Below are positions 43,738-45,212 of a stretch of 64,000 bases of DNA, piece by piece. The position numbers were made by a program, and so were the translations under genes. The stretch lies in contig NC_011678.1 in NCBI RefSeq assembly GCF_000150955.2, positions 515,518-579,517 on the forward strand. Reading direction: 5' to 3'. Positions within the stretch are counted from its first letter, which is position 1; the number at the start of each line of letters is the position of its first letter. The notes under the pieces are model-generated. The model made no database searches. It worked only from the letters and a program-made list of their open reading frames with translations, and was not told the origin of the DNA. This DNA comes from Phaeodactylum tricornutum CCAP 1055/1 (lineage: Eukaryota > Bacillariophyta > Bacillariophyceae > Surirellales > Neidiaceae).

Positions 43738-44528
43738 GAACCAGTGTTGTAAGGCACAATGCCATTACTACAATCTTACACTGATGTATGCAAAAAGGTG
43801 GCAATGCTACTTTAGCCCACTTGGGATTTAAGGCTCGCTTTAAGAAATATTGACTGAGGGTGAGCACCACACAAGTTGTATTGTTTCGTATAGTGCATGG
43901 ATTTCGCAGCTACGTTCACTCTGCCCCAGCGAGAAACACTTTAGACATGTCGAAGACGCATTGTTTGACTCAGAGTCTCTCTCTCTATTGAAGCGGCAAG
44001 AGTGATACTACTCTGAAATTTTAATACACGGGAAACACTTTATTGTCGCGCTCGCAGGCTCCAATGTTATCGGTTACGACCAATAGAAGGACAATTGGAC
44101 GAAATTCGATTACACTAAGCTTCATTGTATAATAAAATGATGATACAGAGCTTAGGAAAGAGAGTGCAATGGGGTTAAGGCTTGCGCCCCGGTATCATGT
44201 ACGAATTTGTTTCCTTTCATATCAATCCGGATGTATGTATTTCTGCATGGCACAAGATCAACAGAACGTGCAGCAGCGAGCAGACCGCGACTGCCAGCTC
44301 TCCAATACCTGGCTTGTGTTGCCAAAGGATACACATTAGATAATATAATTCTTACTAGATCGTTCTCTCCCCAAAAATTGTTCACGCATCGATGACTTTG
44401 AGAAAGACAGTATGGTGTGACAAACTTCTTTCATGATCGCTCTCCGTGAAGCAAAATTTCACTTGGACAGGTCATACCAAAAAGTAATCGAACATCTTTG
44501 CTTGTGGGGTGTTAGAATGAATCAATGT
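43738..44528. other. Intergenic region; 3' UTR side of the TGA-containing DsbA-like gene
   Basis: No gene supported. The right part is the 3' flank (minus strand) of the probable selenoprotein gene and should hold its SECIS element. Several ATGA motifs with nearby complementary arms occur on the minus strand between about 44400 and 44500, but none forms a convincing SECIS by eye. Confidence 0.4.
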
Positions 44529-45212
44529 CTAATCCTTGAGCTTCTCTGAAAGCTCTTCGAACACTTCAAGAAATGACTCAGAAGCTTGGGCTCCAGAAAA
44601 AGCATAGGGGGTAGCCAATCCTGTTGCACCAACAACAAAAAATGGAACTCCTTGGATACCGAAAGCTCGGCGTCCCCGATCAATTTCTTGCATTACCCTC
44701 GCAGCGCCTTTGTCTTTGGTGATATAGTCTCTCAAGTCCTCAACGTCCACTTCTGGCAGTGTGTTCTCTGCCAACCGAATCAAGGTTTCAGTATCGCTAA
44801 GGTTTTCACCTTGCTCATACAGCGCTCTAAAAAGCACTTCATTCGCTTTATTCGTGTCCAAGCCGTGCTTCTCTTTTCCGTACATAATCCATTGGTGTCC
44901 ACGCAGCGTATTCGGCCACCATTTCCAGTTCGAAAAACGGGCTCCGTTCTTGACGCCTTCGCTCTGTAGATGTTGTGTCCAACCCGACCCACCCCAGCGA
45001 CGCTTGCAATACGCGTTGAACTCTTCTCCGTTAGGCTCTGTACCAGGATCGATCTGATATGGCTTCCACTCAACTTCTACCGGAAGTTTCCCATTGACTG
45101 TGAAGTGGTCGATTGCTTTTTGGAGTCGTTTCTGGCCCACGTAGCACCAGGGTCAAGCAAGGTCAGAAAAGACGGTTACCGATATGGCCTTGTGAATTGA
45201 GTTTGAAGACAT
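44529..45212 (-). CDS. DsbA/FrnE-like thioredoxin-fold oxidoreductase with in-frame TGA (probable selenoprotein, UPWC site)
   Basis: From ATG 45212 the frame reads MSSNSIHKAISVTVFSDLA, then TGA (45153-45155), then PWCYVGQKRLQ and on to TAG at 44529; 227 residues if TGA is selenocysteine. In the FrnE/DsbA family the motif is SD.VCPWCY.G, so TGA sits exactly at the first, nucleophilic Cys and the second Cys (residue 23) is kept. Family features follow: PYQIDP, GFE-like NWKWWPNTLRGHQWI, LFRALYEQGENLSD, and the cis-Pro loop GVPFFVV. Starting instead at GTG 45140 or inside would remove the whole first strand and the active site. The product should be a dithiol/selenothiol oxidoreductase. No leader peptide is obvious, suggesting a cytosolic protein. 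SECIS not confirmed. Alternatives are a sequencing error (TGC/TGT to TGA) or a dead gene, but conservation right across the TGA argues for recoding. Confidence 0.87.

Follow-up and report, generated by a model that had tools for sequence, protein, structure and literature searches.

The 64,000-nucleotide stretch of Phaeodactylum tricornutum DNA analysed here (the window) carries, on its minus strand, a frame of the DSBA family that is broken by a TGA codon at the presumed active site. This raises the question of whether the TGA ends or disables a gene, or whether it is decoded as selenocysteine (Sec). The frame (Table 1) translates as MSSNSIHKAISVTVFSDLA*PWCYVGQKRL..., in agreement with the SDLA-TGA-PWCYVGQKRL reading of the initial annotation, and its TAG terminator lies at 44531-44529. 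The TGA is the sole interruption of the 227-codon frame, and the remaining two frames of the minus strand contain 5 and 14 stops over the same stretch; a single internal stop at exactly codon 20 thus shows that this is not a chance open reading frame. Our analysis suggests that the gene very probably encodes a FrnE-type (DsbA-family) thiol-disulfide oxidoreductase with Sec in place of the nucleophilic Cys of the CPWC site (U20-P-W-C23).

Table 1. Predicted features of the FrnE locus, in window positions
Feature	Position	Strand	Description
Sec-FrnE/DsbA CDS (predicted)	45212-44529	-	227 residues when UGA is decoded as Sec (U20); TAG terminator
In-frame TGA, codon 20	45155-45153	-	First (nucleophilic) Cys position of CPWC; aligns with Cys of homologues
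TGC codon 23	45146-45144	-	Second (resolving) Cys of U-P-W-C; position computed from 45212
SECIS-like hairpin	44484-44427	-	AUGA core (44475-44472), unpaired AA, apical stem, CGAU core; 54 nt past stop
AATAAA, possible polyadenylation signal	44044-44039	-	Motif only

The family assignment draws on both sequence and structure comparisons. With the TGA read as a residue, the Pfam DSBA profile matches residues 12-215 (E 1.8e-21), and phmmer aligns residues 8-219 to Deinococcus FrnE (5cnw; E 2.7e-21). In this alignment residue 20 falls on the first Cys of ACPWCYIG, confirming the earlier claim that the TGA occupies the position of the first redox Cys of the family. NCBIfam profiles gave no match to the read-through protein at E <= 0.01. 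An AlphaFold model built from 34 sequences, with Cys at the TGA position, has a mean pLDDT of 96.4 and a pTM of 0.91; its first strand is formed by residues 10-16 and helix 1 starts at residue 21, directly after the site, so the segment upstream of the TGA is part of the fold. The top five Foldseek matches are Deinococcus radiodurans FrnE entries (TM 0.77-0.80), the best being 5coh (TM 0.80, E 1.1e-15) and 5cnw (TM 0.77), and the next is Streptomyces SCO1869. The CPWC site at the start of helix 1 is present as U-P-W-C, with the TGA standing for the first Cys and PWC retained. The GVPFF loop near the C-terminus is present as well; V189-P190 is invariant in the 34-sequence alignment, and we take P190 to be the cis-Pro. 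The predicted protein resembles D. radiodurans FrnE in its fold and in the position of the CPWC site, but it has a predicted Sec where the latter has Cys, and its chain is shorter than the 260 residues of D. radiodurans FrnE. D. radiodurans FrnE also has a second pair of Cys residues, carried by a C-terminal extension close to the end of the chain. The pair of this subtype is absent here, since the only Cys codons in the frame, TGA codon 20 aside, are 23 and 69.

Homologues were collected in a protein search that gave 222 matches, of which the best 120 were examined; a second search added two and a third none, for a total of 122. The comparison at codon 20 that the initial annotation had called for found Cys in 25 of the 122 homologues among the matches listed, and Trp in two (P0012, with 6 member sequences, and P0121, with 4). 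In the Cys homologues, the residues upstream of the site are conserved and the alignment runs without a gap through SDLA-PWCYVGQ. The Cylindrotheca fusiformis homologue P0006, for instance, reads AIEVTVYSDLACPWCYVG, and conservation does continue on both sides of the TGA as had been proposed. The two Trp clusters read SDLAWPWCYVG, and their Trp is best explained, judging from the protein sequences, as a TGA called with genetic code 4; alternatively, it may be a true TGG. Pattern and protein scans of viral contigs and genome contigs returned no orthologue DNA.

Many of the homologues are truncated: 43 of the 122 listed start at residue 25 or 26, and another 52 begin at other positions or carry an N-terminus that cannot be aligned. 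P0001, which is 94% identical and has 28 member sequences (the cluster may include the present gene itself), is called only from residue 25. P0037, P0062 and P0063 begin with ...SHVGQ, as though an intron of those species ended at codon 23, and P0017 has an unrelated N-terminus as far as the site. Truncated starts were considered as proof of a TGA in the relatives and rejected: they fit a stop, but they fit introns too, as the ...SHVGQ starts indicate, and truncation is therefore not counted as TGA evidence. An intron might in principle remove the TGA from the present gene too, as in-frame GT-AG pairs of 48 or 42 nt (CDS nucleotides 34-81 and 40-81) and longer ones are available. Splicing, however, would delete SDLA-PWCYVGQ, the most characteristic part of the protein and the very part through which the Cys homologues align gap-free, which makes a spliced-out TGA extremely unlikely.

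The truncated homologues also bear on where translation starts. A mechanical ORF in the FrnE frame begins downstream of the TGA, at GTG 45140, and is without strand 1 and the active site, just as the initial annotation had anticipated for standard gene callers. If this GTG or a later ATG were the true start, the upstream part would be 5' UTR and the product a protein without an active site, and the homologues called from residue 25 or 26 would be in keeping with it. Such a start is hardly credible, however, in view of the conservation of the upstream residues in the Cys homologues and the loss of both the first strand and the catalytic motif; GTG starts are, moreover, rare in eukaryotes. With Sec at codon 20 as the preferred reading, the sequence indicates that the FrnE gene is likely mis-annotated in a model diatom genome.

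Most of the machinery for Sec insertion is present in the host genome (27.45 Mb in 88 contigs). This one genome has two distinct tRNA-Sec genes (L001 and L002), each with a TCA anticodon, as well as SepSecS, eEFSec and SelD, the last in its Cys form. About 5 kb from SepSecS lies a second SepSecS-like copy (L017, L018), which is partial, contains an in-frame TGA and is perhaps a decayed duplicate. Five other kinds of gene in the genome contain an in-frame TGA at the expected site: two GPx genes and SelM-like, SelT-like and SelU-like genes, the last three labels being assigned by motif. In-frame TGA codons were found in two of the three GPx matches, in both SelM-like matches (which are near-identical copies) and in one of the three Rdx matches (the SelT-like gene), and in none of the nine MsrA matches in the genome. 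The SelU-like gene (L032), one of six AhpC-TSA_2 matches, reads RSLGUPLCQ, with the TGA just upstream of the Pfam match. A further in-frame TGA within each of the SelU-like and GPxA frames was taken for part of an intron. The sole other match to the FrnE protein in the genome (E <= 1) is a DsbA match with MCPWC and no stop. The predicted Sec-FrnE and this Cys paralogue in the same cell would form a convenient pair for testing the contribution of selenium.

The FrnE stop codon is followed by a SECIS-like hairpin (Table 1). The scan that detected it, which was loosened and tuned with the positives in view, looks for AUGA ... GA cores, folds the stretch under constraint and requires 7 or more pairs in the helix above the core; it gave one match in the FrnE 3' region. 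In the same scan, all five of the other Sec genes have a match within 110 nt after the stop (GPxA +89, GPxB +41, SelM-like +16, SelT-like +102 and SelU-like about +57), where the SelM-like gene is counted as one copy (L011) of the near-identical two and the SelU-like stop was picked by eye beyond the putative intron. The SelU-like hairpin, just after this putative stop, has an energy of -18.3 kcal/mol. Only 1 of 56 control ORF ends was positive at -10 kcal/mol or better, the controls being ATG ORFs of at least 200 codons (spurious ones included), each with 300 nt behind it, in the window and at other loci, with Sec loci excluded. Across the window, 36 single-hairpin matches at <= -10 kcal/mol were found in 128,000 nt, the FrnE hairpin included, which corresponds to 0.028 per 100 nt.

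Among the hairpins of the six Sec genes, that of FrnE is energetically the weakest (-10.0 versus -13.6 to -21.0 kcal/mol). In a stricter scan, which requires the unpaired AA, it scores -8.7, a value matched by 17 of 200 shuffled versions of the 790-nt 3' region, and the hairpin alone, taken over the whole 3' region, is not significant. Free folding of 44425-44484 gives -15.5 (z -2.02), with 6 of 200 shuffles as good, and in this fold the AUGA core is in Watson-Crick pairing with downstream bases and is not open for the non-canonical quartet. The yardstick is itself uneven, since the stricter scan has no match in SelM L011 or SelT, and only the two GPx and FrnE have the unpaired AA among the hairpins counted; the earliest strict scan had no match in GPxA or SelT. 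The Rfam SECIS_1 model gave two sub-threshold matches in the genome and none in the FrnE 3' region, and this silence is uninformative because the model is equally silent on four other Sec genes tested. The 3' region holds another hairpin (44125, -18 kcal/mol), which was rejected as not SECIS-like, as it is without a GA opposite AUGA in register. On position, which is good, and energy, which is weak, the hairpin in Table 1 is a probable SECIS, a call we make with moderate confidence. If polyadenylation is signalled by the AATAAA motif, it would lie within a 3' UTR some 0.5 kb long.

The genomic context also helps to judge whether the TGA is a recent nonsense mutation of the Cys codon, marking an incipient pseudogene, or an error of sequencing or assembly. 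A single base change suffices to make TGA from TGC or TGT, but the remainder of the frame is intact, several other selenoprotein-family genes of the genome carry an in-frame TGA, and a SECIS-like hairpin follows the present one. In addition, P0001 is likewise called only from residue 25 (an intron could give the same), and the two more distant clusters have their Trp at exactly codon 20. A mutation or error is accordingly very unlikely. The proposal of a probable selenoprotein, in turn, finds support in the position of the site, the Cys homologues, the two homologues in which a TGA appears to have been read as Trp, the Sec machinery, the other in-frame-TGA genes and the hairpin.

If the gene is expressed as we infer, the SECIS hairpin in the 3' UTR would recruit SBP2 and eEFSec with Sec-tRNA-Sec, the UGA at codon 20 would be decoded as Sec, and translation would continue to the TAG. 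The low-pKa selenolate of U20 would then attack disulfides or sulfenic acids, and C23 would resolve the selenenylsulfide. The weak hairpin, with its competing Watson-Crick fold of the core, might also point to recoding that is inefficient or selenium-dependent, which we consider unlikely; were it so, the gene would act as a selenium-sensitive switch between full-length Sec-FrnE and an aborted peptide of 19 residues.

Sec-DsbA/FrnE is an already described eukaryotic selenoprotein family, algae included, and the present gene is a new or unlisted member of low surprise, which opens no new biology on its own. Sec-DsbA was known from bacteria and Micromonas before 2010, when proteins with the upstream Cys of CXXC replaced, and with a SECIS, were reported from Ciona intestinalis, C. 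savignyi and Branchiostoma floridae (PMC2874816). The C. intestinalis gene had suffered the same kind of mis-annotation, its Sec-TGA being left in the UTR (PMC2874816). The gene described here differs from those of Ciona and Branchiostoma in its diatom lineage and in its weaker, putative SECIS hairpin. SelenoDB 2.0 includes FrnE (DsbA) as a family (PMC3965025), and Sec-FrnE of the same family, with the same recoding as proposed here, has been described in Mamiellophyceae and M. viride (PMC6627142). A survey of algae names DSBA as one of their most widespread Sec proteins, although it counts only GPX, SELENOU, SELENOT and TXNRD as present in over half of 36 genomes (PMC7539508, section 5), and diatoms are credited with 20-44 selenoprotein genes (PMC7539508). 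Phaeodactylum is not named in the main text of that survey, in the portions available to us, and the Sec-DsbA/FrnE literature examined, likewise available in part, does not name the present gene; the supplement of PMC7539508 may list it.

Elsewhere in the window, ORFs at 31999-27431 on the minus strand resemble, by eye, a Ty1/copia-type retrotransposon, and may explain the strong base skew at 28-32 kb. Also on the minus strand, 48055-47000 encodes a LarE-like ATP-dependent sacrificial sulfur transferase (TIGR00268, E 3.2e-50, above the cut-off).
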